Positions 42,343-58,414 of a stretch of 64,000 nucleotides of DNA are shown here, in pieces. Position numbers and translations under genes: made by a program. The stretch lies in NCBI RefSeq assembly GCF_000152805.1, contig NZ_CH902578.1, forward strand, positions 3,047,029-3,111,028. The letters run 5' to 3'. The stretch is from Maritimibacter alkaliphilus HTCC2654. GTDB lineage: Bacteria > Pseudomonadota > Alphaproteobacteria > Rhodobacterales > Rhodobacteraceae. Numbering within the stretch: the first letter of the stretch is position 1; the number at the start of each line of letters is the position of its first letter. A model generated the notes under the pieces. The model searched no databases. It saw only the letters and a list, made by a program, of their open reading frames with translations, and was not told the origin of the DNA.

Positions 42343-43266
42343 TTGGATTTTGCACTACTCGTCATCCAGACCCTCAACGGTCTGCAACTCGGGCTTTTGC
42401 TGTTCCTCGTCGCCTCCGGGCTGACGCTGGTGTTCGGCATTCTCGATTTCGTCAATCTCGCCCATGCGTCGCTTTACTTGATCGGGGCGTTCATCTGCGC
42501 CACGCTGACCTTCGCGCTGGGCAATTTCCTGATCGCCGTCGTCGTGGCCCTGCCGCTGACCGGGCTGATCGGATGGGCTGTCGAACGCTTCGTCGCGCGG
42601 CCTTTGTATGAGCGTGACCACCTCGACCATGTGCTCGCCACCTTCGGTCTGATCCTCGTGTTCGAAACCCTCGCTCACCTGATCTGGGGGCCCGAGGGGA
42701 TCGCCGTGCCGCTCCCCGAATTCCTTCAGGGCCAGATCGTGCTGTCGGAAACGCTCATCATCCCGTCCTACCGCTTCCTCATCATCGGGGCCGGGCTCGC
42801 CGCCGCCGGGGGACTGTTCTGGATGGTCAACTTCACGCGCCTCGGCATGTTGATCCGCGCGGGTGCCTCGAACCGCACGATGGTCTCGGCGCTGGGCATC
42901 AACATCGAAATGCTCTTCGGCCTCGTCTTCGCCATCGGCGCGACGCTCGCGGGGCTGGCCGGGATGCTCGTCGCCCCGATCACCGAAGCCAACATCGGCA
43001 TGGGCAACTCGATCATCATCACCGCCTTCGTCGTCATCATCGTGGGCGGCATCGGGTCGATGAAAGGGGCCTTCGTCGCGGCGCTTCTGATCGGGCTGAT
43101 CGACACGCTGGGCCGCTCGTTCCTCGACGATATCTTCAAGATCTTCATGTCGCCCTCCGCCGCCGAAAACTCGGCCCCCGCGATTTCGGCGATGCTCATC
43201 TACATCATCATGGCCGTGGTTCTGGCGCTGAAACCGCAGGGCCTGTTCCCGCCGAAGGTGCGCTGA
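42343..43266 (+). CDS. livH: Branched-chain amino acid-type ABC permease LivH
   Basis: A 307-residue permease with about eight membrane helices. It starts with a rare TTG at 42343 (GGGAG lies about 10 bp upstream; no upstream ATG fits). Family signature stretches include NGLQLGLLLFLVASGLTLVFGILDFVNLAHASLY at the start and GLAGMLVAPITEANIGMGNSIIITAFVVIIVGGIGSMKGAFVAALLIG near the end. It forms the channel with LivM. Confidence 0.9.
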   Translation: MDFALLVIQTLNGLQLGLLLFLVASGLTLVFGILDFVNLAHASLYLIGAFICATLTFALGNFLIAVVVALPLTGLIGWAVERFVARPLYERDHLDHVLATFGLILVFETLAHLIWGPEGIAVPLPEFLQGQIVLSETLIIPSYRFLIIGAGLAAAGGLFWMVNFTRLGMLIRAGASNRTMVSALGINIEMLFGLVFAIGATLAGLAGMLVAPITEANIGMGNSIIITAFVVIIVGGIGSMKGAFVAALLIGLIDTLGRSFLDDIFKIFMSPSAAENSAPAISAMLIYIIMAVVLALKPQGLFPPKVR

Positions 43267-43267
43267 G

Positions 43268-44239
43268 ATGAGCCGTCGCAACATCATCACCCTCGTCGTC
43301 ATGGCGCTGCTCGCGGTGCTGCCGCCGGTTTTCTACCTGACCGGCAACGCCTTTTACCTCGACCTCGCCACGCGCCTGACGATCCTCGCCATCGCGGCGG
43401 TCAGCCTGAACCTGATCCTGGGCTATGGCGGACTCATCAGCTTCGGTCACGCGGCCTACCTCGGGATCGGCGCCTATGCGGTCGGTATCCCGGCGCATCA
43501 CTGGCTTTACGGCGGTCTCGAAAGCCTCGGCCTCGCCACCACCTCGGGCTATGTGCAGATCCCGCTGGCGATCGGTGTCGCGGCGCTCTTCGCCCTCGTC
43601 ACCGGCGCGATCTGCCTGCGCACCAAGGGCGTCTACTTCATCATGATCACGATGGCCTTCGCGCAGATGATGTACTACGCCATCGTCTCGATCGAGGAAT
43701 ACGGCGGCGACGACGGGCTTGTGATCGACTCCCGGTCCGAGCTGCCCTTCATCGACCTCGACGACCCGCTGCAACTCTTCGGCCTCGCCTATGTCTCGCT
43801 CGTCGTCGCGATGCTGATCGTGCGGATGATCGTGAACTCGCGCTTCGGCATGGTCCTGCGCGGGGCCAAGGGCAACAACGAGCGCGTCGTGATGCTGGGC
43901 TTCAACACCTACCTGTTCCGCCTGACCGCCTATGTCATCGCGGGGGCCATGGCGGGCTATGCCGGCGCACTTCTGGGCAACTTCACCACCTTCATTTCGC
44001 CCGAGATGATGGACTGGGGCCGCTCCGGTGAGCTCATGTTCATGGTGATCCTCGGCGGCACCGCAACCCTCGTCGGCCCGGTGATCGGCGCCACGCTCTT
44101 CATCGTGCTCGAAGAGGTGCTCTCGTCGCTCACGGTCTACTGGCATCTGCCCTTCGGCCTGCTGCTGCTCGCCGTCGTGCTCTTCGGCAAGGGCGGGATC
44201 ATGGGGATGCTGCGCGCGGACAAGGAGGACAGCGAATGA
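43268..44239 (+). CDS. livM: Branched-chain amino acid-type ABC permease LivM
   Basis: A 323-residue permease partner of LivH. Visible: SLNLILGYGGLISFGHAAYLGIGAYAVGIP, RTKGVYFIMITMAFAQMMYY, and the EAA-like loop GAKGNNERVVMLGFNTYLFRLTAYVIAGAMAGYAGAL. Its start is one base after the LivH stop and its end overlaps LivG by 4 bp. Confidence 0.9.
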   Translation: MSRRNIITLVVMALLAVLPPVFYLTGNAFYLDLATRLTILAIAAVSLNLILGYGGLISFGHAAYLGIGAYAVGIPAHHWLYGGLESLGLATTSGYVQIPLAIGVAALFALVTGAICLRTKGVYFIMITMAFAQMMYYAIVSIEEYGGDDGLVIDSRSELPFIDLDDPLQLFGLAYVSLVVAMLIVRMIVNSRFGMVLRGAKGNNERVVMLGFNTYLFRLTAYVIAGAMAGYAGALLGNFTTFISPEMMDWGRSGELMFMVILGGTATLVGPVIGATLFIVLEEVLSSLTVYWHLPFGLLLLAVVLFGKGGIMGMLRADKEDSE

Positions 44240-44988
44240 CCATGCTGGAAACCAGATCGCTGATGAAATCCTTCGGCGGCATCCGCGCCACCGACGACCT
44301 GACCCTGTCGGTCGAGCCGGGCGAACTCCATGCCATCATCGGCCCCAACGGCGCGGGTAAAACCACCCTCATCACCCAGCTTTGCGGCTCGCAGAAACCC
44401 GACAGCGGCACGATCCTCTACAAGGGGCAGGACATCACGCGCGTCCCCGCCCACAAACGCGCCCGGCTGGGGATCACGCGCAGCTTCCAGATCACCTCGC
44501 TCATCCTCGACATGACGGTAATCGACAACATCGCGCTGGCAGTGCAGGCGCGTCAGGGGTCGTCGTTCCGACTGGTGCGCAATGCGCGTACGATTTCCGC
44601 GATCCGCGACCGCGCGATGGAGCTATTGACCCGCGTGGGCCTGTCCGACAAGGCAAATATGGTGACAAGCGCGCTCAGCCACGGCGAACACCGCCATATG
44701 GAGATCGCCATCGCGCTGGCCGCCGAGGCCGAACTCATGCTGCTCGACGAACCCATGGCGGGGCTGGGCGCCGAGGAAACCCGTGCGATGATCGACCTTC
44801 TGAACGGCATCAAAGGCCAGCACACCATCGTTCTCATCGAACACGACATGGACGCGGTCTTCGCGCTGGCCGACCGTATTTCCGTGCTGGTCTACGGCCA
44901 CATCATCGCGACCGGCTCGCCCGCCGAAATTCGCGCGAACAAAGACGTCGAAGCCGCCTATCTGGGCGAAGAAAGCGGGGCCGCCTGA
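44236..44988 (+). CDS. livG: ABC transporter ATP-binding protein LivG
   Basis: A 250-residue ABC ATPase. Walker A GPNGAGKTTLI, signature LSHGEHRHMEIAIALA (a His in place of the second Gly), Walker B LMLLDEPMAGLG, and H-loop IVLIEHDMD. It energises import with LivF. Shares one base with LivF's ATG. Confidence 0.92.
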   Translation: MTMLETRSLMKSFGGIRATDDLTLSVEPGELHAIIGPNGAGKTTLITQLCGSQKPDSGTILYKGQDITRVPAHKRARLGITRSFQITSLILDMTVIDNIALAVQARQGSSFRLVRNARTISAIRDRAMELLTRVGLSDKANMVTSALSHGEHRHMEIAIALAAEAELMLLDEPMAGLGAEETRAMIDLLNGIKGQHTIVLIEHDMDAVFALADRISVLVYGHIIATGSPAEIRANKDVEAAYLGEESGAA

Positions 44989-45689
44989 TGCTGGACGTAT
45001 CCGACCTCACCACCCATTACGGCACCTCGCAGGCGCTGTTCGGCATGAATTTCTCATTGGGCACCGGCGAGGTGGCCACGCTTCTGGGCCGCAACGGCAT
45101 GGGCAAGACGACAACGATCAACTCGATCATGGGGATCGTGAAGGCCTCCGGCGGGTCCATCGTCTTCGATGGCGAGGAACTGGTGGGCCGCCCCTCGTTC
45201 CGCACCGCCAACCTTGGGCTGGGGCTCGTCCCCGAAGGCCGCCAGATCTTCCCCAACCTGTCCGCGCGCGAAAACCTCGTCGCCACCGCGTCCAATCACC
45301 TGAACCAGCCCGACCCCTGGACCATCGACCGCGTCTTCGCGCTCTTTCCCGAGCTTGAAAGCCGGGCCTCCTCGATGGGCAACCTGCTCTCGGGCGGCGA
45401 ACAGCAGATGCTCGCCATCGGTCGCGCGCTCATGACCAACCCCAAGCTTCTGATCCTCGACGAGGCGACCGAGGGGCTCGCCCCCCTCATCCGCCAGAAA
45501 ATCTGGTCCGCGCTGGCCGACATCCGCGCCACGGGCCTTTCGATCCTCGTCGTCGACAAGAACCTTCACGACCTCATGCGCCTTGCCGACCGCCATTTCA
45601 TCGTCCAACGCGGCGAAGTCGTCTGGTCCGGCACCAGCGCCGAGTTGCAGGCCGACCAGACCGCCCGCGAAACCTGGCTCGGCCTCTGA
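44988..45689 (+). CDS. livF: ABC transporter ATP-binding protein LivF
   Basis: A 233-residue ABC ATPase. Walker A GRNGMGKTTTI, signature LLSGGEQQMLAIGRAL, Walker B KLLILDEATEGLAP, and a LVVDKN loop where most ABC ATPases carry the switch His, as usual for LivF. Last gene of the aromatic-uptake operon. Confidence 0.92.
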   Translation: MLDVSDLTTHYGTSQALFGMNFSLGTGEVATLLGRNGMGKTTTINSIMGIVKASGGSIVFDGEELVGRPSFRTANLGLGLVPEGRQIFPNLSARENLVATASNHLNQPDPWTIDRVFALFPELESRASSMGNLLSGGEQQMLAIGRALMTNPKLLILDEATEGLAPLIRQKIWSALADIRATGLSILVVDKNLHDLMRLADRHFIVQRGEVVWSGTSAELQADQTARETWLGL

Positions 45690-45719
45690 TCTTTCCGGTC
45701 TGAAAATATCCCGGGGGGT

Positions 45720-45739
45720 GCGGGGGGCTGGCCCCCCGC
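45720..45739. terminator. GC hairpin between convergent operons
   Basis: A perfect 8-bp stem GCGGGGGG/CCCCCCGC (45720-45727 and 45732-45739, loop CTGG) lies in the 77-bp gap between livF and the convergent amine oxidase. No T tract is present, so termination may need Rho or be partial. Confidence 0.5.
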
Positions 45740-45766
45740 CGGCGCGACCGCAGAGCGGGCGCAACC

Positions 45767-47116
45767 TCAGGGGTCTTCGATCCACTCCGCCGCCCATTGC
45801 CCGGACAGATAGGCACCGTGCGTGGTCGCATGATAGTCGAACGTCGTGTGCTCGCCCGCGAACACCAACCGGGCTGACGCCGGGGTCTCGAACGCCTTCC
45901 ACAGGCCCCGCGACGCACCTGCGACGGGAAACGAGTAAGCCCCCCGAAACAACGGATCGGTCGACCAAGCGGTCTTCAACACGGCCGTCGGCGCACCGGC
46001 ACCGTCGAATGCGGCGTCGAGCACCTCCAGCGCATCCTGCGTCGCCTCTGACGTGCTCATCCGGTCCGCCACGGGGGCGTAAGCGCCGAAAGACAGGCCC
46101 AAAAGTATGTTCTGGTCCGAGAAGGTCCGGTAGTTCAGCCAGTAATTCCAGCGCCCGCGCGGCTCGGTCACGATGCCGAAATACTGCGTGTCCACGTCCC
46201 AGAACGCCTGATCGAATTTCAGCGCGATCTTGGTCACGGTGCCTATGCCGATGCCCCGGATGGCGTCGGCATAGGCGGCCCGCAAGGGTGGGTCGAAGGT
46301 GACATCGCCCGCTTTCAGCACGCCCAAGGGCAGGGCGCAGACCACGTTGTCGCCGGTCACCTCGCCCCACGGGCCCGAGACCCGCGCGACCGACCCGTGC
46401 GCGATGCCCGTCACCCGATGCCCCGTGCGGATGTCCAGCCCCAGCGCCAAAGGTGCGAGCAGGCGGTCGTAGCCGTCCGGCAGGATCACGTCCGTGCCGG
46501 GAAACGCCTCGTCCTCGAAAGCGAGCGCCGCCGACACATCTTCCAACGGCGCGCCGAGATCGAACTCCACATAAGCCGATAGCATCCAGCGCGCTTCGGG
46601 GGTGCGCAGGATGTCGGGGTCGATGTCGTCGATCAACGCGGCGAGGCTGCGGGGATCGTCCTCACCCCCAAGCTCGTCATACAACGCGTCCTCGAAATCT
46701 TCGTAGAGCGTGTCCAAAGCCTTGGCCACGTCCTCGCCCATCTCGGTTCCGTTCGCATAGAGAACCTCAAGACTGTCGTCAGCGGTCACGAAGGTCTGTG
46801 CGCCCAGCTCATCCGCAAGTCCTGCCACCGGGTTGCCGCGCCCCGGTCCGTGAATCCAGCCCGCGCCCCACTCGAACGGAGCGCCAAGGCTGTGATCGGT
46901 CCGGATACGCCCGCCGATCCGGTCGCCAGCCTCCAGCACCACGATCTCCGCACCTGCGTCCTGCAATCGCCGCGCGGCGGAAAGTCCCGCGATCCCGGCG
47001 CCGACGACGATCACCTTCCGGCCGCCAAGTCTCTGCGCCTGAACGCGTCCCGCGTGTGTCGCCGCCAGCGCCGCCAGCGCGAACCTGATGCTGTCGCGGC
47101 GTGAAAGACGTGTCAT
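45767..47116 (-). CDS. Flavin monoamine oxidase family protein, Tat-exported
   Basis: A 449-residue FAD amine oxidase from the ATG at 47116; the longer open frame upstream is antisense to the KAS III gene. The N terminus TRLSRRDSIRFALAALAA is a twin-arginine signal. FAD-binding KVIVVGAGIAGLSAARRLQDAG, EAGDRIGGRIRTD and the C-terminal RLVFAGEHTTFDYHATTHGAYLSG match the polyamine/monoamine oxidase family. It would oxidise an amine in the periplasm. It is divergent from the KAS III cluster and may serve it. Confidence 0.88.
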   Translation of the reverse strand: MTRLSRRDSIRFALAALAATHAGRVQAQRLGGRKVIVVGAGIAGLSAARRLQDAGAEIVVLEAGDRIGGRIRTDHSLGAPFEWGAGWIHGPGRGNPVAGLADELGAQTFVTADDSLEVLYANGTEMGEDVAKALDTLYEDFEDALYDELGGEDDPRSLAALIDDIDPDILRTPEARWMLSAYVEFDLGAPLEDVSAALAFEDEAFPGTDVILPDGYDRLLAPLALGLDIRTGHRVTGIAHGSVARVSGPWGEVTGDNVVCALPLGVLKAGDVTFDPPLRAAYADAIRGIGIGTVTKIALKFDQAFWDVDTQYFGIVTEPRGRWNYWLNYRTFSDQNILLGLSFGAYAPVADRMSTSEATQDALEVLDAAFDGAGAPTAVLKTAWSTDPLFRGAYSFPVAGASRGLWKAFETPASARLVFAGEHTTFDYHATTHGAYLSGQWAAEWIEDP

Positions 47117-47260
47117 GACGTGGTCCCCGATCCGTTCCCCCAACGCTATGTAAGCGACCGCTCGCCGTCCAGCGCGATGTCCGGGCTTGGGAATTCGCGA
47201 GCGGCGGCGTACATAATCATCCGGGTCCGCCAAAGACGGCGGGGAAGCGGAGGAACACGG

Positions 47261-48241
47261 TTGATCACCATCCTCGGGACAGGCCGGGCGCTTCCCGCCC
47301 GTTGCGTCAGATCCGACACCTTCGATGAACGGATCGGCAAACCTGTCGGCTATCTCGCTGAAACGACTGGTGTCGCCGCCCGCTATGTGTGTGAGGCGGA
47401 AAGCCAGATCGACCTCGCCGAAACCGCGTGTCGGGCCGCGCTGGAGGATGCCGGTGTGGCGCCGGGCGACGTCGACCTGATCCTGTGCGGCAGCGCGGTG
47501 CCCTATCAGCCGATCCCGGCGACCGCCCCGGCGGTCATGCAAAGGCTGGGCATGGCGGATGGAAGCGCGGCCGCGTTCGACGTGAATGCGACGTGCCTGA
47601 GCTTCCTGACCGCGCTCGACACCGCTGCCCGCATGATCGCCACGGGGCAGGCGACCCGTGCGCTCGTGGTCGCGTCCGAGATCGCCTCCCGCGCGCTGCC
47701 GTGGGACAGGCAGCCCGAAGTCGCGGCGCTGTTCGGGGATGGCGCGGCCGCGGCGGTCGTCACCAAGGCGACCACAGGGGGTATGGTGGCGAGCCTCATG
47801 CGGACCTATCCTTCGGCTTACGATGCCTGTTCGCTCGGCTCCGGTGGCACGCGCTTCGACTACCACAAAGACCCCGATGGATTCGCCGCCCATGCGTGGT
47901 TCGGGATGGACGGGAAAGAGCTTTTCCGCCTTGCCTCCCGCCATTTCGGGGCGTTCGTGGACGACCTGCTCGCCCGCGCAGGCTGGGCGCGCGACGACGT
48001 CGACCTCGTCATCCCGCATCAGGCCAGCCCTGCCGCGCTCACCCACATGATCCGTCAGACAGGCTTTGCCCCCGACCGGGTGGTCGACATCATCGCCGAC
48101 CACGGCAACCAGATCGCGGCCTCGATCCCCTTCGTGCTCGATGTCGCGCGGCGGTCAGGGCGGATGCCGGAAGGGACGCGGACGCTTTTCCTAGGCACGT
48201 CGGCGGGTGTGTCTTTTGGGGGCTTGGCCTATGTCGCCTGA
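47261..48241 (+). CDS. 3-oxoacyl-ACP synthase III family protein (FabH/OleA-like)
   Basis: A 326-residue thiolase-fold enzyme. The TTG at 47261 is taken as start because GGAGGA lies 5-10 bp upstream and the fold begins there. Catalytic Cys112 lies in FDVNATCLSF, His in VIPHQASPAAL and Asn in DHGNQIAAS, the FabH triad. The IDLAETACRAALEDAG and LFGDGAAAAVV stretches are typical. It would condense an acyl-CoA/ACP with another acyl unit. It is first of a six-gene overlapping operon, so it is specialised rather than housekeeping FabH. Confidence 0.87.
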   Translation: MITILGTGRALPARCVRSDTFDERIGKPVGYLAETTGVAARYVCEAESQIDLAETACRAALEDAGVAPGDVDLILCGSAVPYQPIPATAPAVMQRLGMADGSAAAFDVNATCLSFLTALDTAARMIATGQATRALVVASEIASRALPWDRQPEVAALFGDGAAAAVVTKATTGGMVASLMRTYPSAYDACSLGSGGTRFDYHKDPDGFAAHAWFGMDGKELFRLASRHFGAFVDDLLARAGWARDDVDLVIPHQASPAALTHMIRQTGFAPDRVVDIIADHGNQIAASIPFVLDVARRSGRMPEGTRTLFLGTSAGVSFGGLAYVA

Positions 48242-49214
48242 GCGCATTCTCGTCACCGGAGCGACCGGGTTCCTTGGTGGTGCGCTGGTGCGAAGGCTTC
48301 TGGCAGACGGGCGGGACGTGGTCGCGCAGGGCCGGGACCCATCCGGGTGCGCGGCGTTGACGGCGCAGGGCGTTCCCGTCCTGCGGTGGGACGTTTCGGT
48401 GCCCCTGTCGGACGTGCCGCCCGCCTTGGCCGGTGTCACCCACATCGTCCACGGCGCGGGACTATCGTCGCCTTTCGGCTCTCGTGCAGCCTTCGAAGCG
48501 GCGAATCTCATCGGAACCCGGAACGTGGTCGATCTTGCCCGCCGCCTTGGGGTTCGTCGCTTCGTTCAGGTGTCCAGTTCGACCGTCTATTTCGCCCTGC
48601 GTGACCAGTTGGACCTGCGTGAGGACGACCCGCTTCCCAAACCCTTCAACCAATACGCCCGCACCAAGCGGCTGTCGGAAGAAATCGCGCTTGCCGCACC
48701 GGACATCGGCCCCCTCGCGATCCGCCCGCGCGGGCTGTATGGGGCAGGGGACACAGTGCTTCTGCCGCGCTTGCTCAAGACGGCCGCCGAACGCCCCCTC
48801 CCGCTTCTGCGTGGTGGGGCGGCCCGGATCGACCTGACCCATGTGGAGGATGTCGTCGCCGCGATCATCGCCGGGTTGGACGCACCGACAAGCGCGGAAG
48901 GAGAGGTGTTCAATGTGACCGGGGGCGAAACCATCCCGGTAACGCGTCTCGCCGAAAGCGCCTGCGCCCGCGCGGGCATTTCGCTTCGCTGGCGCAAGGT
49001 GCCCGTGACCCTCGGCCTCGCAGCGGCGTGGTCCGCCGAAAAGGCCGCGCTTCTGACAGGGAAAGGTGAACCCGCCATCACCCGATATGCGCTGGCGCTC
49101 TTCGCCTATGCCCAAAGCCTCGACATTTCCAAGGCCGAGCGCGTGTTGGGCTGGACGCCCCGCATCGGGTTCGAGGAAGGGCTGGATCGCACGTTCGCGA
49201 AGGCGGACCTATGA
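48231..49214 (+). CDS. NAD-dependent epimerase/dehydratase family reductase
   Basis: A 327-residue extended SDR from the ATG at 48231, overlapping the KAS III gene by 11 bp. NAD-binding GATGFLGGALVRRL near the N terminus, the active-site Ser/Tyr-x3-Lys as SSSTVYF and YARTKRLSEE, and IRPRGLYGAGD are visible. In Ole-type pathways a similar enzyme (OleD) reduces the KAS-like product; here that is an analogy from order and family. Confidence 0.87.
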   Translation: MSPERILVTGATGFLGGALVRRLLADGRDVVAQGRDPSGCAALTAQGVPVLRWDVSVPLSDVPPALAGVTHIVHGAGLSSPFGSRAAFEAANLIGTRNVVDLARRLGVRRFVQVSSSTVYFALRDQLDLREDDPLPKPFNQYARTKRLSEEIALAAPDIGPLAIRPRGLYGAGDTVLLPRLLKTAAERPLPLLRGGAARIDLTHVEDVVAAIIAGLDAPTSAEGEVFNVTGGETIPVTRLAESACARAGISLRWRKVPVTLGLAAAWSAEKAALLTGKGEPAITRYALALFAYAQSLDISKAERVLGWTPRIGFEEGLDRTFAKADL

Positions 49215-50035
49215 CCCCCGTCTTCGCCAACAGCGCCACCGTCCGGGCGCGTGAAAGCCTGATCCAGCGCGGGGGGCGGCGCAGGCCGGTGGAGCTTCGG
49301 GTGCGCTTCGGTCTGTTGGATCATCCGCGGATCGGCCCCGTCCTGATCGACACGGGATATACACGCGAAACGGTCGAAGGGGCGCGCAGTCTGGCGCTCA
49401 GGACATACGCACGCGCGCTTCGGCCCAAATTGAACGAAGCCGGTCAGCCAAGCGCCGTTCTGTCCCGTCGTGGTGTGTCGCCGGAGGATGTCGCCTGCAT
49501 CATCCTCACTCATTTCCACGCCGACCACATATCCGGCCTGCGCCAGTTTCCCAACGCCCGCATCATCGCCTGCGACAAGACCTTCGCGGCGATCAGTCGA
49601 AGGGGTGCGTTGGCCAACATACGCCACGGTATCTTTCCCGAACTTCTGCCAGACGATTTCTCCACCCGCCTCACAGGATTTTCGACTCTGCCCCGATCCG
49701 AGGTCACATTGCCCGGCGGCCAACCCGCCGGGGTGGATGTGTTCGGCGATGGCTCGGTCCTGACCGTCGATCTGCCCGGACATGCCGAGGGCCATGTGGG
49801 CCTGTTCTTCCCGTCGCTTGCAACGCCGCTGCTCTACGCCACCGACACGCAATGGATGCTGGACGCCCTCGACCACGGTCGCGCACCGGGCCTCCCCGCC
49901 TCGGTCATTGCGGACGATGTGAGCGCCGGACTGCAAAGCACCCGCGTCGTCCGGGCGGTTCGCGATGCGGGGGGGCAGGTCATGCTCTGCCACGACCCGG
50001 CGCAGCAGCCCTATGACGTGGAATCCGCGTTGTGA
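49211..50035 (+). CDS. MBL-fold metallo-hydrolase
   Basis: A 274-residue metallo-beta-lactamase-fold protein. Metal ligands are in THFHADH (His101, His103, Asp105, His106), LPGHAEGHVG, YATDTQW and the late LCHDP. A long N-terminal region precedes the fold. It could hydrolyse a lactone or thioester intermediate of the cluster; substrate not known. Overlaps its neighbours by 4 bp on both sides. Confidence 0.88.
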   Translation: MTPVFANSATVRARESLIQRGGRRRPVELRVRFGLLDHPRIGPVLIDTGYTRETVEGARSLALRTYARALRPKLNEAGQPSAVLSRRGVSPEDVACIILTHFHADHISGLRQFPNARIIACDKTFAAISRRGALANIRHGIFPELLPDDFSTRLTGFSTLPRSEVTLPGGQPAGVDVFGDGSVLTVDLPGHAEGHVGLFFPSLATPLLYATDTQWMLDALDHGRAPGLPASVIADDVSAGLQSTRVVRAVRDAGGQVMLCHDPAQQPYDVESAL

Positions 50036-51282
50036 TCGCCTTCGTCGAAGCGATCGGCACTTATGTCACGGCGCGGCGCATGGCCCGTCCCGGCATGTCG
50101 CGGGAAAGGTTCGAGGCATGGCAGGCCCGACAGGTCGACATCTGGCTGGCGCGTGATCTGCCGCGCGTGGCGGCCTATGCCCATGCGCCGAAAAGGCTGT
50201 CCGATCTGCCGATCACCGACAAGGCGACGCTCATGTCCGATTTCGCTGCCTATAACGTGCCGGGCCTGACTGCCGATGACGTGCGTCAGGCGATTCACGC
50301 GGATTGCCGGATCGGAAGCCTGACCGTGGGGCAGAGTACGGGAACCAGCGGCAACCGTGGCTATTTCGTCATTTCGAATGGCGAGCGGTTCCGGTGGCTC
50401 GGCGCGATCCTCGCTAAAGCGATCCCCGACATGCTGCTGGGGGGCGCGCGGGTGGCGGTGATCCTGCCGCAATCCACTCGGCTTTATGATGCCGCCCGCC
50501 GGACCCGGCGCATCGACCTGCGGTTCTTCGATCTCGTCGCGGGGCCGGAGGTCTGGCAAGACGACCTCGCGGCCTTCGACCCCACCGTCCTCATCGCCCC
50601 GCCGAGACTGCTGCGGCATTTCGCCGAGACAGGTCTTGCTCTCGCGCCCCGCCGCACCTTCGCTGCCGCCGAAACCCTCGACACGGTGGACCGGCCCGTG
50701 ATCGAAGCGGCCTTCGGTCCGCTCGAACAGATCTACATGGCGACCGAAGGTCTGCTGGCCGTGACCTGCCGAGATGGCACGCTGCACCTGTGCGAAGACT
50801 CGGTGAAGTTCGAGTTCGAGCCGGTGGGCGACGGCCTCGTCTCGCCGCTCATCACCGCATTCCGGCGGCAGGCACAGATCATGGCGCGCTACAGGATGAA
50901 CGACCTCCTGCGCCTCTCCACCGCACCCTGCCGCTGCGGCTCGCCGCTTTTGGCCGTGGATGAGGTCGTGGGGCGGATGGATGACCTCTTCCGTTTCGCA
51001 ACGGCGGTGCTGACGCCCGACGTGATCCGCAACGCCGTTGTGGACGCGCACCCGGCCATTCAGGACTTCCGCGTGATCCAGACCAGCCCCTCGACCGTCC
51101 AACTTGTCCTGTCCCGTGACATGTCAGACGCAGCGTGCGAGGCCGCGTTGGCCGCCCTGCGCACCCTGTTCGCGGCGCGGGCGGGCGGGGTGTCGGTGTC
51201 GCTCGAACGCAGACCCCTTACGCTCGATACGGGCCGCAAACTGCGCCGCGTCGAATGTCGGCTGCCGAAAGCGGCTGGATGA
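50032..51282 (+). CDS. CoF/F390 synthetase-like adenylate-forming enzyme
   Basis: A 416-residue protein from a GTG overlapping the upstream stop. It has the reduced ANL layout of PaaK/CapK/F390-synthetase relatives: P-loop STGTSGNRG (102-110), an MATEG segment, and the late YRMNDLLRL and CRCGSPLLAVDEVVGRMDDLFRF, with Cys pairs suggesting a metal site. It would activate a carboxylate by AMP, then pass it to an acceptor. No C-terminal Lys-bearing domain of typical CoA ligases is obvious. Identity of the acid is unknown. Confidence 0.8.
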   Translation: MIAFVEAIGTYVTARRMARPGMSRERFEAWQARQVDIWLARDLPRVAAYAHAPKRLSDLPITDKATLMSDFAAYNVPGLTADDVRQAIHADCRIGSLTVGQSTGTSGNRGYFVISNGERFRWLGAILAKAIPDMLLGGARVAVILPQSTRLYDAARRTRRIDLRFFDLVAGPEVWQDDLAAFDPTVLIAPPRLLRHFAETGLALAPRRTFAAAETLDTVDRPVIEAAFGPLEQIYMATEGLLAVTCRDGTLHLCEDSVKFEFEPVGDGLVSPLITAFRRQAQIMARYRMNDLLRLSTAPCRCGSPLLAVDEVVGRMDDLFRFATAVLTPDVIRNAVVDAHPAIQDFRVIQTSPSTVQLVLSRDMSDAACEAALAALRTLFAARAGGVSVSLERRPLTLDTGRKLRRVECRLPKAAG

Positions 51283-52409
51283 TCGCGGATCGACATATCA
51301 ACCTGGGCGCCGAAAACGACCCGGTCAGCGTCGCGGCCCTCGTATCGCTGTTTCGCGATCACCCGTCCCGTGACCTGATTGCAAACCTCACCACCCGCGT
51401 CGAGGTGCTGGAGGCGTGCGGGAAGACCTTTCCGATAACGCTGAACGACCGGACGGAACGCGGCAATTGCTACATCTGCCGACCGAGCGCGGGCTATATC
51501 GACTATGGGTTGGACGAGACCCGCCATTTCGTATCGAACCCCGCGCTACGTGCGGCCCTTCGCGGATTGATCCGAGCCTGCGGGCCGGTTCTTGCGGCAA
51601 GCGGGCTCGACCATCAGGTGCAGGTCAACAACTGGCTTTTCTCGACCAATCCGGTGCCCGCGCTCACCCTGTCCGACGCGACGTCCATCCGCGATACTCT
51701 GGTGGGCCGATACCCGGACCGCGCGATCGTGCTGCGGTCTTTGAACAGGCTGGCGGATCGGGACACCATCTCGGCACTGGGGCAGGCCGGGTTCATCCTG
51801 TTGCCAGCGCGTCAGGTCTATATCTTCGCGGACCGCAGCAGTGCCCCGAAGCTCAGCCGCAACATGAAGTGGGACCGCAAACTGATGCGCGCGACCCCGC
51901 ACGCGGCGGTCGCGAACGAGGCATTCGGTCCAGAGGATTTCGCCCGTGCGGAAGCCCTGTACGGTATGCTTTATCTGGACAAATACACGCCCCTCAACCC
52001 GCAATACAAGGCGCTCTGCCTGCGTGAGTTGCAACGAAGGGGGATCGTCGAATTCGCCGGTTTCCGGGATCGTGAGACGGGCATATTGACCGCCGTGACC
52101 GGCCTGTTCCGGTCCGGCACGACGCTGACCCAGCCCATCGTCGGTTACGATACGTCACGCCCGCAGGAGGAGGGGCTTTACCGGATGCTGATGGCGCTGT
52201 CGCAGGATCGGGCCAGCGCGGAGGGGTTGTTTTTCAACATGAGCGCCGGGGCAGCGGAGTTCAAACGGCTGCGCGGGGCCGAACCCGTGATCGAATACAC
52301 CGCCGTCTACGTCGCGCATCTGGGGCGGCGCGAACAGGCGGCGGTTCGGGTGATGGAGCGGGTGCTGACCGGTGTGGGCGTGCCGCTTCTGGAACGGTTC
52401 GGCCTATGA
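51279..52409 (+). CDS. FemAB/GNAT-superfamily acyltransferase
   Basis: A 376-residue protein from the ATG at 51279 (ATGA overlap). Two GNAT-like halves are present. The end SAGAAEFKRLRGAEPVIEYTAVYVAH is the typical FemAB/Acetyltransf_6 closing region, and LYRMLMALSQDRA precedes it. It would acylate the product of the preceding steps. The long YFRNxG signature is not seen, so it is a divergent member. Confidence 0.7.
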   Translation: MIADRHINLGAENDPVSVAALVSLFRDHPSRDLIANLTTRVEVLEACGKTFPITLNDRTERGNCYICRPSAGYIDYGLDETRHFVSNPALRAALRGLIRACGPVLAASGLDHQVQVNNWLFSTNPVPALTLSDATSIRDTLVGRYPDRAIVLRSLNRLADRDTISALGQAGFILLPARQVYIFADRSSAPKLSRNMKWDRKLMRATPHAAVANEAFGPEDFARAEALYGMLYLDKYTPLNPQYKALCLRELQRRGIVEFAGFRDRETGILTAVTGLFRSGTTLTQPIVGYDTSRPQEEGLYRMLMALSQDRASAEGLFFNMSAGAAEFKRLRGAEPVIEYTAVYVAHLGRREQAAVRVMERVLTGVGVPLLERFGL

Positions 52410-53389
52410 GTGACCAATGGCATGCCGTGGCGCTCTCGCGCGCCCTCGGGCGCAAGCCGAAACGGGCGTTCTTCGCGGGTCTGCCCGTGGTGCTGTTTCG
52501 CGATGGGCAGGGCAAGGCTGCCGCTCTGCACGACCGCTGCCCCCATCGCTTCGCCGCGTTGTCCGATGGCAGGACGCGGAACGGCGAGGTCGAATGCCCC
52601 TATCATGGCTGGCGTTTCGGGGCGGACGGGCGATGCACCGCGATCCCCGGCCTCGTCGGCTCGCTGCCGCATTTCCGCACCCGCCGTTTCGCGGTGACCG
52701 AGGCCGAAGGCGCGATCTTCCTGTCCGAAGGCGCGCCGGAAAAGGCCCCTTACGTCCACTGCCTGCAAGGACAGCACGTGATCGTCCGTCACGTGACGAG
52801 TTCCACGCGCTCGACCCTGATCGACACGGCCGAAAACATCCTCGACGCCACGCATACGCATTTCACCCACAAGGGCCTGCTGCGCGGACTATCCGCCAAA
52901 CGCTACATGGTCGCGGTCGAGGTGACGGGCGGGCCGGGTTGGGTCGAGGCCCGCTATACGGGCGAGGACCGGGCGCAAGGCGTGATCTCGAAGCTGCTGG
53001 AGGGCGAGCGGGTCAAGACCGTTGGTCGCTATCGTCATCCGGGCATTGCCGAACTCGAATACTGGGGGCCGAAGGGGATGGTGCTGGCGACGACCTTCCA
53101 CTTGCGGCAGACAGACGCGCATACGGTCGAGGGGATCGGCTGGCTCATAGGCCCGAAGCAGGGCGGGCTCGGCTATATCAAGGCGCTCGCCTTCAGGCCG
53201 ATGTTCCGGATCGCGTTGGAGCAGGATCGCCGCGTTCTGTCGACGGCCTTGGAGAACGCCCGACACGCGCCGGTCGCGAAGCCGGTGATCGGACCGCTGG
53301 ATTTCCTGCGCGAAGACATTGCGCGCATACAGGCGGGCGAGGTGCCGTTGGCCGCAGCCACACCGCGCCGGTTTCAGATCGAACTTTGA
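52406..53389 (+). CDS. Rieske non-haem iron oxygenase
   Basis: A 327-residue oxygenase alpha-subunit-like protein. The Rieske 2Fe-2S ligands are Cys45-x-His47 and Cys64-x2-His67 (CPHRF, CPYHGW). The catalytic iron facial triad is in AENILDATHTHFTH (Asp147, His150, His155). A ferredoxin/reductase partner must come from elsewhere. Its size fits the short Rieske oxygenases that hydroxylate or demethylate small molecules. Last gene of the cluster; its end overlaps the convergent ATP-grasp gene by 16 bp. Confidence 0.9.
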   Translation: MSDQWHAVALSRALGRKPKRAFFAGLPVVLFRDGQGKAAALHDRCPHRFAALSDGRTRNGEVECPYHGWRFGADGRCTAIPGLVGSLPHFRTRRFAVTEAEGAIFLSEGAPEKAPYVHCLQGQHVIVRHVTSSTRSTLIDTAENILDATHTHFTHKGLLRGLSAKRYMVAVEVTGGPGWVEARYTGEDRAQGVISKLLEGERVKTVGRYRHPGIAELEYWGPKGMVLATTFHLRQTDAHTVEGIGWLIGPKQGGLGYIKALAFRPMFRIALEQDRRVLSTALENARHAPVAKPVIGPLDFLREDIARIQAGEVPLAAATPRRFQIEL

Positions 53390-54531
53390 TCCGGCCCGTT
53401 CCATTCGATGTCGTATGTCGTCGCGGCGAGCAGGCTGATGCGCCGGCGTAGTGCCAGCCGCGCGAATTCGACCAACGCCACAAGCTGCGCTCTTTTTGCG
53501 CCCGGATCGCCGGGCCAGTCGAGCAACTCGTCCGTCTCTTGTCGGATGCGAAGGAAATCCCTCAGCCGGCCCTTTGCCAGCGCCGGGGCAAGACCGTAGA
53601 CCCAGAGCGCGAGGTGCACGGCCTGCGGCCTTGTCACGTCGGGGTCGCAGGTGGCCTCTCCCGCCAGCATCCGGGCGAAGGACGCGCCATCGCGAAAGAC
53701 ATACAGACCGCTGGTTGCCCGTGGATTGCATTCGAGCGGCAGGACTCGGCCGTCCGCCAGACGCATCAGGTCGAAAGACACCTGTCCGCTCCAATCCGTC
53801 CCGGCGACGAACCGCTCCACGAACGCGGTCACAGCCGCGTCCTCGACCGGGGCGAAGGCGACCGCCGCCCCCGTGCCCGCCCGAGCGAGCGCACGGTAGG
53901 TGGCGAGGGCAGAAAGCCGCCCTTCATGCGCGACGGCATAGGCGCAAAGCTCGGTGCCCGGCAAGTAGTCCTGCGCGACCCATGGCCGCGTGGGGGAAGG
54001 CGTGATCGCATCCAGCCCGCGGGGATCGGGGCGGATCAGAACGTGCTCTGCAAAGCGCGACCAGACCGGCTTGAACACCATGTCACCGGCGCGGTCCCGA
54101 ACCCTGTCGAGATCCGCAAGACCACGCAGCAGGTGCGTCTCGGGCACGTCGAGGCCAAGGCCGGCGCAAAGCTCGATGAAGGCGTGTTTGGAATGCGCCT
54201 GCGCGAGCCGGTCGAACCCCGGCGCGAACATAGGCAGTTCCAGCCCGGCCTCGTCGCGCAGGCGGGCGAGGTGAAAGACCTCTTCGCAAGTCGGCAGGAT
54301 CAGATCGACGCCCTCGCGCGCAACGATCCGCGAGATTGCCTGCCCATGGGCGTCCGGATCGAAGCGTGGCGATGGCGTGCGCTCGTACCGCGCGAACCCG
54401 GTCGCGGCCCCGATCGGGCGGCGCATCGTGTCGGTGAGAACGACCCTGTGTCCCGCGCTTCCCAACAGCCGCGCCATGTGTAGCGCGACGGGCGCGCGGG
54501 CGCCGGTGACGAGGAATGTCTGTCTCTCCAT
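53374..54531 (-). CDS. ATP-grasp domain-containing protein
   Basis: A 385-residue ATP-grasp ligase. An N-terminal preATP-grasp Rossmann-like segment (FLVTGARAPVALHMARLLGSAGH) is followed by MVFKPVWSRFAEHV, WVAQDYLPGTELCAYAV and the Mg-binding LPLECNPRATSGLYVF. ATP-grasp enzymes form amide or similar bonds through acyl phosphates. It lies 38 bp downstream of dppF on the same strand, but its function and overlap with the Rieske gene suggest it belongs with the KAS III cluster. Partners unknown. Confidence 0.83.
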   Translation of the reverse strand: MERQTFLVTGARAPVALHMARLLGSAGHRVVLTDTMRRPIGAATGFARYERTPSPRFDPDAHGQAISRIVAREGVDLILPTCEEVFHLARLRDEAGLELPMFAPGFDRLAQAHSKHAFIELCAGLGLDVPETHLLRGLADLDRVRDRAGDMVFKPVWSRFAEHVLIRPDPRGLDAITPSPTRPWVAQDYLPGTELCAYAVAHEGRLSALATYRALARAGTGAAVAFAPVEDAAVTAFVERFVAGTDWSGQVSFDLMRLADGRVLPLECNPRATSGLYVFRDGASFARMLAGEATCDPDVTRPQAVHLALWVYGLAPALAKGRLRDFLRIRQETDELLDWPGDPGAKRAQLVALVEFARLALRRRISLLAATTYDIEWNGPDQSSI

Positions 54532-54569
54532 GGCCGGACGCTAGGGGGCGTCAGGCCCCCGCGCAAGCG

Positions 54570-55520
54570 TCAGCCCTCGGGATACCAGCAGGCCGCCGGA
54601 TGCTCGCCCATCAGGTCCGGGCGCTGCTCGCGGCATTTGCTCTTGGCCTTCCAGCAGCGCGGCGCGAAGGGGCAGCCGTCGGGAATGTTGAGCGGCGAGG
54701 GCAGTTCGCCCTCCAGCTTGATTCGCTTCTTTTCAGGGTTCGGCTCCGTCGACGGCGTCGCCGAAAGAAGCGCCTTAGTATAAGGATGCCGGGGGTTGCC
54801 GAAGACCGCCTCTTTCGACCCGAACTCCACGGGCCGCCCGAGATACATCACCACCACGTCGTCGGCCACATGCCGCACCACCGACAGGTCGTGCGAGATG
54901 AAGAGATAGGCGAGGTCCAGACGCTCTTGCAGATCGAGCAGGAGGTTCAACACCTGCGACTGGATCGACAGGTCGAGCGCCGAGACGGGTTCGTCCAGCA
55001 CCAGAAGCTTGGGCTCCAGCATCAACGCACGGGCCACCGCGATCCGTTGGCGTTGCCCGCCCGAAAACATATGCGGGAAGCGGTCGTAATGCTCGGGCCG
55101 AAGCCCCACCAGTTCGATCATCTCGCGCGCTTTGGCCTGCCGTTCCTTGGCCGACATATCGGGGCGGTTGATCTTGAGCGGCTCTTCCAGAATGGCACCC
55201 ACCCGGTGACGCAGGTTGAGCGACCCGTAGGGGTCCTGAAACACGATCTGCACCGTGTCGCGCAGCGTGTCCCAGTTGTCGGGCGTCACGTCCTTGCCCG
55301 CGATGTTGAGCGTGCCCGCCGTCGGCTCTTCGATCATCGTGACGAGCCGCGCGAGCGTGGATTTGCCGCACCCGGACTCCCCCACGACGGCGAGCGTCTT
55401 GCCGGCCTCGATGGTGAACGAGGCTTCCGACAGGGCCTTGACCACGCTGGGTTTCGAGAACAGGCCGCCGCCCACTTCGTAGTGGCGGGCGAGGTTCTGC
55501 GCGGTGACGACGGTGTTCAT
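54570..55520 (-). CDS. dppF: Peptide ABC transporter ATP-binding protein DppF-like
   Basis: A 316-residue ABC ATPase from the ATG at 55520 (ATGA overlap with DppD). Walker A GESGCGKSTLARL, signature MFSGGQRQRIAVARAL, Walker B LLVLDEPVSALD, and the C-terminal oligopeptide/dipeptide Cys motif region (LPSPLNIPDGCPFAPRCWKAKSKC) that binds an Fe-S cluster in some DppD/F. Pairs with DppD. Confidence 0.9.
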   Translation of the reverse strand: MNTVVTAQNLARHYEVGGGLFSKPSVVKALSEASFTIEAGKTLAVVGESGCGKSTLARLVTMIEEPTAGTLNIAGKDVTPDNWDTLRDTVQIVFQDPYGSLNLRHRVGAILEEPLKINRPDMSAKERQAKAREMIELVGLRPEHYDRFPHMFSGGQRQRIAVARALMLEPKLLVLDEPVSALDLSIQSQVLNLLLDLQERLDLAYLFISHDLSVVRHVADDVVVMYLGRPVEFGSKEAVFGNPRHPYTKALLSATPSTEPNPEKKRIKLEGELPSPLNIPDGCPFAPRCWKAKSKCREQRPDLMGEHPAACWYPEG

Positions 55521-56491
55521 GCCACGCCCTCCTTCGCGTTGACCGGGTAGTGACAGCGCGCGAGGCCGAGTTCCGGCGGCTGCACCGGCGGGTCGGTCTT
55601 GCGGCAGGTGTCGTTGGCGAACCGGCAGCGCGGCGAGAACAGGCAGCCTTCGGGCCGGTCGTACTGCCCCGGCACGACGCCCGGAATGGTCGGCAGATGC
55701 CGCTCGGTCGCGCGTTCCGGCAGGGCCGCGAGCAGGGCCGAGGTATAGGGGTGGTGCGGTTCGGCGAAAAGCTTGCGCACCTCCTGTTCCTCGACCTTTT
55801 GCCCGGCATATTGCACCTGAACGCGCTGCGCCGTTTCGGCCACCACGCCCATGTCGTGCGTGATGAGGATCAGGCCCATCCCGGTCTCTTTCTGAAGATC
55901 CGTCAGCAGGTCGAGGATCTGCGCCTGAATGGTCACGTCGAGCGCGGTCGTCGGCTCGTCGGCAATGAGAAGGCGCGGCTTGCATGCGAGCGCCATCGCG
56001 ATCATCACCCGCTGGCTCATCCCGCCCGACATCTGGTGCGGAAACGCCTTGAGCCGTTTTTCGGGATCCGGGATGCCCACGAGATCGAGCAGTTCGACCG
56101 CCCGCCTGTGGCGTGCCGCGCGGTCCATCTTCATGTGGATGCGCAAGCTTTCCTTGATCTGGAAACCGACCGTGAAACAGGGGTTCAGCGACGACATCGG
56201 CTCCTGAAAGATCATCGACATATCGCGCCCGATCACCTTGCGCCGCGACTTGGCCGTCATGCCGCGCAGGTCCACGCCGTCGAAACTCATCTCGTCGGCG
56301 GTGATCGTCGCGGTCCACGGTAACAGCCCCATCATGGCGAGCATCGAGACGGACTTGCCCGAGCCGGATTCGCCCACGATCGACAGGATGTCGCCCTCGT
56401 TCACGGTGATGTCGACGCCGTCCACGGCGCGAAACTGGCCACCGGCGGTGTCGAAGTCGACGCTGAGATTGCGGATATTGAGGAGGGTCAT
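55517..56491 (-). CDS. dppD: Peptide ABC transporter ATP-binding protein DppD-like
   Basis: A 324-residue ABC ATPase. Walker A GESGSGKSVSMLA, signature QMSGGMSQRVMIAMAL, Walker B LLIADEPTTALD, and the C-terminal YDRPEGCLFSPRCRFANDTC motif typical of Opp/Dpp ATPases. Only 2 bp separate it from dppC upstream. Confidence 0.92.
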   Translation of the reverse strand: MTLLNIRNLSVDFDTAGGQFRAVDGVDITVNEGDILSIVGESGSGKSVSMLAMMGLLPWTATITADEMSFDGVDLRGMTAKSRRKVIGRDMSMIFQEPMSSLNPCFTVGFQIKESLRIHMKMDRAARHRRAVELLDLVGIPDPEKRLKAFPHQMSGGMSQRVMIAMALACKPRLLIADEPTTALDVTIQAQILDLLTDLQKETGMGLILITHDMGVVAETAQRVQVQYAGQKVEEQEVRKLFAEPHHPYTSALLAALPERATERHLPTIPGVVPGQYDRPEGCLFSPRCRFANDTCRKTDPPVQPPELGLARCHYPVNAKEGVA

Positions 56492-56493
56492 CG

Positions 56494-57405
56494 TCAGCTC
56501 CTCTTCAGTTTGGGGTCAAGCGCGTCGCGCAGGCCGTCGCCCATCAGGTTGATGGCCAGCACCGTGGTCAGGATCGCGACACCGGGGAAGGTGACGACCC
56601 ACCACGCGCGCAGGATGAATTCGCGGCTTTCGGCCAGCATGGTGCCCCATTCCGGTGTCGGCGGCTGCGCGCCCATCCCGAGAAAGCCGAGCGCGGCCAC
56701 GTCGAGAATCGCGTTCGAAAACGACAGCGCCGCCTGCACGATGATCGGGGCGAGGCAATTCGGAAGAACGGTGACGAACATCAGCCGTGGCAGTTTCGCG
56801 CCCGCGACCCGCGCGGATACCACGTAGTCCTTGGACAACTCCGTCATCACCGCCGCGCGGGTCAGGCGCACGTAGTGGGGTTGAAGCACGATGGCGATGG
56901 CGATCATGGCATTCAGCAGCGACGGCCCGAGAATGGCGACGAGGACGAGCGCGAGCAGCAGCGACGGGATGGACAGAATGATGTCCATGATCCGCATGAT
57001 GATCGTGTCGAGCCAGCGCGGTGCGAACCCGGCGATGAGTCCGGTCAGAATGCCGCCGGTCGCCGCGAGGATCACGACGATGGTGCCGACGAGGAACGAA
57101 TAGCGCGCGCCGTAGATCAGGCGCGACAGCATATCCCGCCCCAGCGGGTCGGTGCCCAGCGGATAGGTCCAGCTTCCGCCGTCCTGCCACGCAGGCGGCA
57201 CCAGCGTGGCGCCTCGGTTCTGGGTGGACGGTTCGAACGGGGAAATGAGCGGCGCGAAGATCGCGACGATCAGGAAGAAGATGAACACGTAAAAGCCGAT
57301 CACGGCCCCACGGTTCTCGCGGAAGTAACGCCAGAATTCCTTGAACCGGCCGGGGCGGACGGTCGTGGTCGGCGTGGTGTTGGTCGATGAACTCACGTCT
57401 GCCAT
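56494..57405 (-). CDS. dppC: Peptide ABC transporter permease DppC-like
   Basis: A 303-residue permease. After a soluble N-terminal stretch, the first helix (GAVIGFYVFIFFLIVAIFAPLI) and the EAA loop region (VVSARVAGAKLPRLMFVTVLPNCLAPIIVQAAL) are clear, and the end ALDPKLKRS is typical for DppC. Starts one base after dppB ends. Confidence 0.92.
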   Translation of the reverse strand: MADVSSSTNTTPTTTVRPGRFKEFWRYFRENRGAVIGFYVFIFFLIVAIFAPLISPFEPSTQNRGATLVPPAWQDGGSWTYPLGTDPLGRDMLSRLIYGARYSFLVGTIVVILAATGGILTGLIAGFAPRWLDTIIMRIMDIILSIPSLLLALVLVAILGPSLLNAMIAIAIVLQPHYVRLTRAAVMTELSKDYVVSARVAGAKLPRLMFVTVLPNCLAPIIVQAALSFSNAILDVAALGFLGMGAQPPTPEWGTMLAESREFILRAWWVVTFPGVAILTTVLAINLMGDGLRDALDPKLKRS

Positions 57406-57406
57406 G

Positions 57407-58414
57407 TCAGCGCTTCCGGATCTTGGGGTTGATGAGACCGTAGAGCAGGTCGACGATCAGGTTCACCACCATCACGAGAAGTGCCACGAGCAGCAGCCCG
57501 CCCTGCACAACCGGGTAGTCGCGGCGATAGATGCTGTCGACCATCCACTTGCCGATGCCCGGCCACGAAAAGATCGTCTCGGTCAGGATGGCTCCTGCAA
57601 GGAGCATACCCACGGACAGGCCGATCACGGTGATGACCGGGATCATCGCGTTCCTGAGCGCATGGACCCCATTCACCCGCGGCGGGGTCAGGCCCTTGGC
57701 GCGGGCGGTGCGGATGTAGTCTTCGCCCAGCACCTCGAGCATGGCCGAGCGGGTCTGGCGCGCGATGACGGCGAGCGGGATGGTGGCGAGCACGATGGAC
57801 GGCAGGATCAGGTGCCTTACAGCCGAAACGAACGCGCCATCCTGCCCCGACAACAGCGAGTCGATCAGCATGAAGCCGGTCACGTCGGGGAAATAGTAAA
57901 GCAGGTCGATCCGGCCGGACACGGGCGTCCAGCCCAGATTGCCCGAGAAAATGATGATGAGCAGCAGCGCCCACCAGAAGATCGGCATCGAATACCCGAT
58001 CAGGGCCGAGGACATGAGCGCGCGGTCGAAGAACTTGCCGCGGTTCACGGCGGCGATGACGCCCGCCGGAATGCCCAGCGTGATGGCGATGACGATGGCG
58101 CAGAACGACAGCTCCAGCGTCGCCGGAAACAGCGCGAAGAACTCGTCGAAGACGGGGCGCTTGGTGACATAGCTGGTGCCGAGATCGCCCTGAAGGACGC
58201 CGGTGAAGAAATCCCAGAACTGCACGACGAGCGGGCGGTCGAATCCGAACTGCTGGTAAAGCTCGTTGTAGCGTTCTTCGGTCATGCCGCGTTCGCCCGC
58301 CATGACGATGATCGGATCGCCGGGCAGCACGCGGATGAAGGAGAATGAGATGATGGTGACCCCGATGAACGTCGGGATGAAGGTCAGGAGCCTCCCGATC
58401 AGGTAACGTAGCAT
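57407..58414 (-). CDS. dppB: Peptide ABC transporter permease DppB-like
   Basis: A 335-residue permease. The opening MLRYLIGRLLTFIPTFIGVTIISFSFIRVLPGDPI and the EAA loop LGEDYIRTARAKGLTPPRVNGVHALRNAMIPVITVIG match DppB/OppB. The end DLLYGLINPKIRKR is typical. It follows dppA after 98 bp containing a strong hairpin. Confidence 0.93.
   Translation of the reverse strand: MLRYLIGRLLTFIPTFIGVTIISFSFIRVLPGDPIIVMAGERGMTEERYNELYQQFGFDRPLVVQFWDFFTGVLQGDLGTSYVTKRPVFDEFFALFPATLELSFCAIVIAITLGIPAGVIAAVNRGKFFDRALMSSALIGYSMPIFWWALLLIIIFSGNLGWTPVSGRIDLLYYFPDVTGFMLIDSLLSGQDGAFVSAVRHLILPSIVLATIPLAVIARQTRSAMLEVLGEDYIRTARAKGLTPPRVNGVHALRNAMIPVITVIGLSVGMLLAGAILTETIFSWPGIGKWMVDSIYRRDYPVVQGGLLLVALLVMVVNLIVDLLYGLINPKIRKR

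Follow-up and report, generated by a model that had tools for sequence, protein, structure and literature searches.

The olefin (OleABCD) and lipstatin-type β-lactone pathways combine a ketoacyl synthase III (KAS III)-like enzyme, an OleD-like short-chain dehydrogenase/reductase (SDR) and an adenylate-forming enzyme, and the same combination is found in an operon of Maritimibacter alkaliphilus HTCC2654, which lies within a 64,000-nt stretch of contig NZ_CH902578.1 (positions 3,047,029 to 3,111,028 of the forward strand; hereafter the window, whose own numbering is used throughout). The operon differs from the Ole and lipstatin systems in that its KAS III lacks the catalytic Glu, its ligase is of the PaaK type and a metallo-β-lactamase (MBL)-fold hydrolase stands in place of OleB. 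A second point of comparison is offered by CorB and MxnB of corallopyronin and myxopyronin biosynthesis. One study names this Glu as the putative base of OleA and PpyS and gives Val at the position in MxnB and CorB, both in the FabH clade; in OleA the residue, E117, reaches the active site from the partner subunit (PMC4578411).

Here we describe the operon as one version of a constant four-gene core with varying partner genes. Because the core is constant and its partners belong to headgroup- or lipid-modifying families, we tentatively propose, at somewhat less than even chances, that this accessory operon makes a hydroxylated acyl scaffold decorated with interchangeable polar groups, that is, an acyl-derived amphiphile, and the polar group in the window's version is probably amino-acid-derived.

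A four-gene core is held together across lineages

The initial annotation of the window had placed six open reading frames (ORFs) on one strand between 47261 and 53389, with a 4–11 bp overlap at each junction. All six are present there on the + strand, and the successive overlaps are 11, 4, 4, 4 and 4 bp. They encode a KAS III (47261–48241), an extended SDR of the 3β-HSD/OleD-like type (48231–49214), an MBL-fold hydrolase (49211–50035), an F390-synthetase-related/PaaK-like adenylate-forming enzyme (50032–51282), a FemABX/MprF-like tandem-GNAT transferase (51279–52409) and a Rieske non-haem iron oxygenase (52406–53389). These are the enzyme types originally named: Pfam returns KAS III, Epimerase, Lactamase_B and Rieske, the ligase lies near TIGR02304, and the FemAB-like assignment holds by fold. 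The proposal of one biosynthetic-type operon is supported as well, and because the six-gene set is conserved elsewhere it is more than a chance association. Six genes are not the full set, however, as a convergent gene on the − strand encoding a PRK06849-like ATP-grasp ligase (53374–54531) is conserved with them and forms a seventh member, nor do the six act as the working unit, which is instead the core KAS–SDR–MBL–F390 accompanied by exchangeable tailoring genes.

Scanning GTDB species genomes with an alignment of the ligase gave at least 577 confirmed relatives, of which the best 80 were used, their loci being scored with hidden Markov models (HMMs) built from the first loci read; because the best matches were kept, this set leans to Alphaproteobacteria. 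All four core genes are present in 74 of these 80 loci, the other 6 being cut by a contig edge, and FemX-like, ATP-grasp and Rieske genes occur in 58, 56 and 48 loci, respectively. Two further samples were chosen regardless of neighbours and comprised 292 genomes of the window's order and 398 of its phylum; the ligase was found at E ≤ 1e-40 in 17 and 11 of them, the window's own genome being in both. With the window's locus excluded, these samples gave 26 loci, 24 with the full core. Locus L123 has KAS, MBL and F390 genes, with an SDR gene some 3 kb further along on the opposite strand, and L133, the weakest match among the 26, has none of the other core genes. FemX-like, ATP-grasp and Rieske genes accompany 10, 12 and 10 of the 26. 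The 26 loci overlap the best 80, at least four contigs being of equal length in both, and because many loci are from Mesorhizobium the locus counts are not independent events; clustering of neighbouring genes was likewise dominated by Mesorhizobium flanks and antisense ORFs.

Plasmids carry the core too. Among 56 plasmid records that match the ligase, 12 were examined and 10 have the full core, and records labelled Shinella, Rhizobium and Roseateles (the last label unconfirmed) match the window in all seven genes and in their arrangement, at 50–64% identity to the window's proteins. The co-occurrence in related genomes on which the initial annotation had staked its proposal is thus found, the genes travelling together, and the core is held together down to about 25–45% protein identity to the window's proteins. 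The order KAS–SDR–MBL–F390 is usual, with exceptions: ATP-grasp is second in two Bacillota loci, KAS is last in Fusobacterium, and the ligase gene faces the others in a group that includes Sphingomonas and Caulobacter. One Escherichia coli record labelled as a plasmid (L003:5140-12021) carries, next to narGHJI, genes for KAS, SDR, MBL and F390 together with PAP2, a fatty acid hydroxylase and a desaturase. Gene content was read in this single copy; at the DNA level, 672 of 5426 complete E. coli genomes match it, and in 671 of these the match spans 80% or more of its length. Since the genes are kept together at 25–45% identity and a relative is present in so many E. coli genomes, the core very probably makes something specific.

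Some loci depart from this picture in other ways. Two contigs from metagenome-assembled genomes, L037 (labelled Flavobacteriaceae) and L058 (labelled Acidobacteriota), have KAS sequences that fall among alphaproteobacterial ones, possibly binning errors or transfers. Large Pseudomonas plasmids (L006 and L009) encode an F390-like protein and an ATP-grasp protein without most of the core, amid mostly hypothetical genes, where the ligase perhaps has a different use. In Paracoccus alcaliphilus (L004:1-2745), the annotation places a nonribosomal peptide synthetase, a phosphopantetheine-binding protein and an AMP-binding protein some 2.5 kb ahead of the core. A phage origin was rejected, as none of 92 pattern matches in viral contigs encodes a relative by tblastn.

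Partner genes vary and follow descent with some exchange

The partner scan covered the families already noticed, using HMM seeds from the same loci and gaps within 2.5 kb. FemX-like, Rieske and ATP-grasp combinations accompany the core in most of the best 80 loci, with a GT1-like glycosyltransferase in 8, DUF3419 in 8 and a sulfotransferase in 1; the 26 sampled loci include five with a sulfotransferase (four of them divergent and upstream), three with PAP2, hydroxylase and desaturases, and one with DUF3419. The partner families found elsewhere (DUF3419, FA_hydroxylase, FA_desaturases, PAP2, sulfotransferase and GT1-like) are thus of lipid or headgroup type. They recall the tailoring of betaine lipids, ornithine lipids and sulfolipids: bacterial BtaA presumably belongs to DUF3419, and the FA_hydroxylase partner has OlsE as its best NCBIfam hit, at 65 bits against a cut-off of 475. 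A DUF3419 protein is named a putative betaine lipid synthase in PMC10685587. These related families adjoin the core in other genomes, whereas DUF3419, OlsE-type and sulfotransferase families are absent from the family hits of the window's seven genes. Beside DUF3419, in L058:10194-11048, L062:10173-11024 and also L068, there is a protein whose L058 copy hits only the VanA_C iron domain in Pfam; judged by eye, the protein keeps the iron-site motif but not the Cys/His ligands of a Rieske centre, which would fit loss of the [2Fe-2S] cluster.

On a quick tree of the F390 ligase with long branches (119 rows, 114 labelled by partner; three contig-edge loci, L123 and L133 unlabelled), the partner label changes 15 times, against a minimum of 5 and a mean of 35.1 for shuffled labels. 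The labels therefore follow descent, with some exchange. Counted on well-supported branches, the least numbers of changes are 7 for FemX/Rieske/ATP-grasp, 5 for no partner, 3 for DUF3419, 2 for sulfotransferase and 1 each for glycosyltransferase and the desaturase set.

The core enzymes

The KAS III gene starts with TTG preceded by GGAGG, and the Cys112-His253-Asn283 triad of its product is intact, as originally noted. Across the alignment of cluster KAS the three residues are kept in 107, 108 and 108 of 110 rows, the rest being gaps bar one Gly at 253. The position of OleA E117 is Ile in 64 rows, Leu in 43 and a gap in 3, with Glu in the two OleA controls, and an OleA identity was rejected on these grounds. 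A housekeeping FabH was rejected in turn: the genome has a separate FabH at C4:815230 (391.5 bits), and because of it we regard the window copy as specialised. Elsewhere in the genome a 154-aa frame (L142, C4:2255096-2255503) aligns with no more than the C-terminal portion of the FabH model and is perhaps a fragment or frameshift.

The KAS shares with CorB and MxnB a VNAxCLSF motif, the lack of the OleA/PpyS Glu and a grouping in the tree. In a small tree of 35 hand-picked cluster KAS, with only two FabH, two OleA, CorB and MxnB as references, CorB and MxnB fall among the cluster KAS (support 97/99), apart from FabH and OleA. PRK07204 is the best NCBIfam model of both the window KAS (285 bits) and CorB (302 bits), each under the cut-off of 402. 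By this analogy the KAS III may join two acyl or ketoacyl chains as CorB and MxnB do. The latter work on polyketide synthase (PKS)-bound chains, whereas no PKS was seen in window positions 43000–58000, where a small carrier protein could be missed because the list took in ORFs of at least 80 aa.

The SDR has a GxxGxxG motif and the pair Y142 and K146, kept in 110 of 111 aligned rows. Its best NCBIfam hit is OleD, at 163.2 bits far under the cut-off of 580 for membership of that family. The partial parallel to Ole/β-lactone pathways that the initial annotation had seen is a loose one: the SDR has OleD as its best hit, but the KAS has Ile or Leu at the Glu position and groups with CorB and MxnB. 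The MBL enzyme keeps the metal ligands H101, H103, D105, H106, H191 and D212 in all 113 aligned rows and the last His (261) in 93 of 113 as aligned, and position 215, Trp in the window, is aromatic throughout (W 106, Y 5, F 2). It thereby shares the dinuclear zinc ligand set (HxHxDH, H, D, H) of acyl-homoserine lactone (AHL) lactonases, which together with pyridoxo-lactonases are its nearest solved structures, but it scores below the equivalog cut-offs of AttM (76.1 vs 390 bits) and AiiA (49.2 vs 375 bits).

The ligase gene starts with GTG, and its product matches TIGR02304, 'F390 synthetase-related protein', from end to end at 249.9 bits, just under the cut-off of 251.9; the name carries no function and implies no F420 or F390 chemistry. 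Residues S102, G104, G107 and E239 are kept in 119 of 119 rows and K403 in 115, with four gaps, and the motifs STGTSG, TEG and GRxDD with the C-terminal Lys403 are, we assume, those of adenylation. Cys246, His252, Cys300 and Cys302 look like a putative zinc site. A profile of the ligase finds PaaK-like ligases first and another CoA ligase weakly, in a collection whose OleC content is unconfirmed, and the AMP-ligase of a control Ole cluster (L138) is different-looking and longer as judged by eye. The earlier remark that the set lacks OleC is a statement on family only, because the F390-type enzyme also forms adenylates and might take the place of OleC. Family searches of the seven genes gave no α/β-hydrolase (the OleB class).

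The tailoring enzymes of the window

The FemX-like protein (376 aa) alone has no Pfam or NCBIfam match, and PF13480 is matched at E ≤ 0.01 by 14 of 35 aligned family members, the window copy not among them. Its predicted model (pLDDT 94.0) has a tandem-GNAT fold, and in a search of PDB folds ranks 1–16 and 18 are streptothricin aminoacyl-tRNA-dependent peptide synthases, lysyl- or alanyl-phosphatidylglycerol synthases or MprF, with FemX from rank 24. Although the folds are alike, a whole MprF has about 800 aa, and the FemX-like family has its own conserved residue set, in which, of 17 residues tallied over 73 sequences, 16 are invariant and D291 is kept in 68. On the basis of this predicted fold, the protein may use aminoacyl-tRNA as donor. 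The ATP-grasp ligase was also modelled with a pLDDT of 94.8. In the Rieske protein, both the CxH...CxxH motif for a [2Fe-2S] cluster and the D..H....H iron site (D147-H150-H155) are present; C45, H47, D147 and H150 are kept in 61 of 61 family members and H155 in 60. Its solved relatives include DdmC and KshA-like catabolic enzymes.

The seven genes form an accessory block

Within the genus, the cluster is carried by two of eight genomes, both at the same site: the ligase was found in one of seven other genomes (G663), where the block aligns to window 47381–55723 at 75% identity. The right flank was compared in five of the six cluster-less congeners, and similarity ends at 54556–54578, just past the ATP-grasp gene; one of the five (G668, 81% complete) has a contig that ends soon after, and the sixth congener (G669) gave no match for the flanking gene. 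We place the block at 47261–54560, the right edge being set from this end of similarity. The seven genes look like an accessory, optional block, in a pattern that fits insertion or loss alike.

ABC-transporter operons lie on either side of the block, and the right-flank gene for a transporter ATPase occurs in congeners without the cluster too. Upstream and divergent on the − strand is a flavin amine oxidase gene (45767–47116), with an N-terminal SRRDS twin-arginine-like signal; it is absent from the annotated neighbours in L002, L007 and L013 and unaligned in G663. The ATP-grasp gene shares 16 bp with the tail of the Rieske gene, and among 34 loci of this tail-to-tail layout the overlap is exactly 16 bp in eight (the window, L002, L007, L013, L016, L023, L043 and L045), the remaining junctions ranging from a 19-bp overlap to a 661-bp gap. 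A promoter/terminator scan showed no promoter-like site and 5 terminator-like sites, against 4.2 expected.

Discussion

From what is observed here, namely the genes present, their intact motifs and fold classes, their conservation, the varying partners and the patchy distribution, we infer reactions, their order and a product as follows. The PRK07204-type KAS III would join two acyl units, at least one of them long, as CorB and MxnB do; the SDR would reduce the resulting ketone to a hydroxyl; the MBL enzyme would hydrolyse a thioester or lactone to a carboxylic acid; and the F390/PaaK-type ligase would activate this carboxyl as an adenylate, perhaps a CoA thioester. These four enzymes would make the scaffold common to all members. 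The window's version would continue with the FemX/MprF-like transferase attaching an amino acid, for which aminoacyl-tRNA is the probable donor; another amide, or an ester, would be made by the ATP-grasp ligase, and the Rieske enzyme would hydroxylate. In other lineages the same scaffold may carry a sugar, a sulfate or an aminocarboxypropyl group, or else additional hydroxyls or double bonds.

Several observations weigh against this proposal. A tree in which the cluster KAS form their own clade, without CorB and MxnB, is not rejected by the approximately unbiased test (p-AU 0.471), and in phmmer the window KAS scores 176 bits against FabH, its best solved structure, and 150 bits against MxnB/CorB. 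The fold matches of the FemX-like protein to MprF-type, streptothricin and FemX enzymes are moderate (TM 0.43–0.52, identity 8–17%), with acetyl-CoA and acyl-CoA GNATs appearing from rank 20, so that aminoacyl-tRNA is a putative donor. The ATP-grasp model fits PurK and GAR synthetase best, the first L-amino acid ligase being at rank 18 and PylC at 30. The roles of DUF3419, glycosyltransferase and sulfotransferase are read from family names, and none of the scanned partner families is found in 7 of the 114 labelled rows or in the off-edge loci L123 and L133. No known substrate or product was found for any cluster member.

The phmmer result also bears on a different pathway, in which FabH-like chemistry on acyl-CoA and malonyl-ACP would be followed by reduction, MBL thioester hydrolysis and re-activation to give a 3-hydroxyacyl-amino acid lipid, an analogue of ornithine lipids. 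The intact His/Asn pair of the KAS, the specialised copy beside a separate housekeeping FabH, and the presence of an amino-acid-type transferase with an ATP-grasp ligase all suit it, yet the KAS groups with CorB and MxnB and not with FabH, hydrolysing a thioester only to re-activate the acid would be wasteful, and family searches of the seven genes turned up no O-acyltransferase, the neighbours not having been searched specifically for one; we regard it as rather unlikely. A β-lactone pathway of the Ole/lipstatin kind, with a β-keto acid made by the KAS III from two acyl units, OleD-like reduction, ring closure by the F390-type enzyme and an MBL that opens or limits the lactone, would account for the presence of the OleA–OleD–OleC classes, the OleD hit of the SDR, and the lactonase-like structure, metal ligands and aromatic residue 215 of the MBL. 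The replacement of the OleA Glu, the SDR score far under the OleD cut-off, a ligase that is PaaK-like and, by eye, different-looking beside the longer Ole enzyme, and the missing OleB-class hydrolase make this pathway improbable.

The same likeness of the MBL to quorum-quenching lactonases could point to a catabolic or detoxifying operon, in which the MBL, ligase, SDR and thiolase-superfamily enzyme would degrade an external lactone or acid and the Rieske enzyme, with relatives such as DdmC and KshA-like enzymes, would start the oxidation, with transporter operons flanking the block. The KAS III and the FemX-like, ATP-grasp, glycosyltransferase and sulfotransferase partners look anabolic, however, and the right-flank transporter ATPase gene is present in congeners that lack the cluster; we consider this reading very improbable.

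The initial annotation knew of no named product for the set, and in open-licence PubMed Central (PMC) literature we found no work on the cluster or its product, though a description elsewhere is possible. The terms TIGR02304, aden_form_hyp, PRK07204, PRK06849, 'CoF synthetase' and 'F390 synthetase-related' were not found in that literature, and mentions of 'F390 synthetase', among the passages and listings examined, concern other genes or are bare annotation lines.

Returning to the decorated acyl scaffold that we favour, the cluster brings together a ketosynthase of the CorB/MxnB type and a ligase whose family has, in this study, no name beyond 'F390 synthetase-related'. It is possible, if on the doubtful side, that the core makes an undescribed two-chain acyl scaffold with swapped headgroup modules, and with it a new class of bacterial lipid or signal found across Bacillota, Fusobacteriota and Alpha-, Beta- and Gammaproteobacteria, some E. 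coli among the last. From the way the tailoring genes vary, its product would be expected to differ from lineage to lineage.

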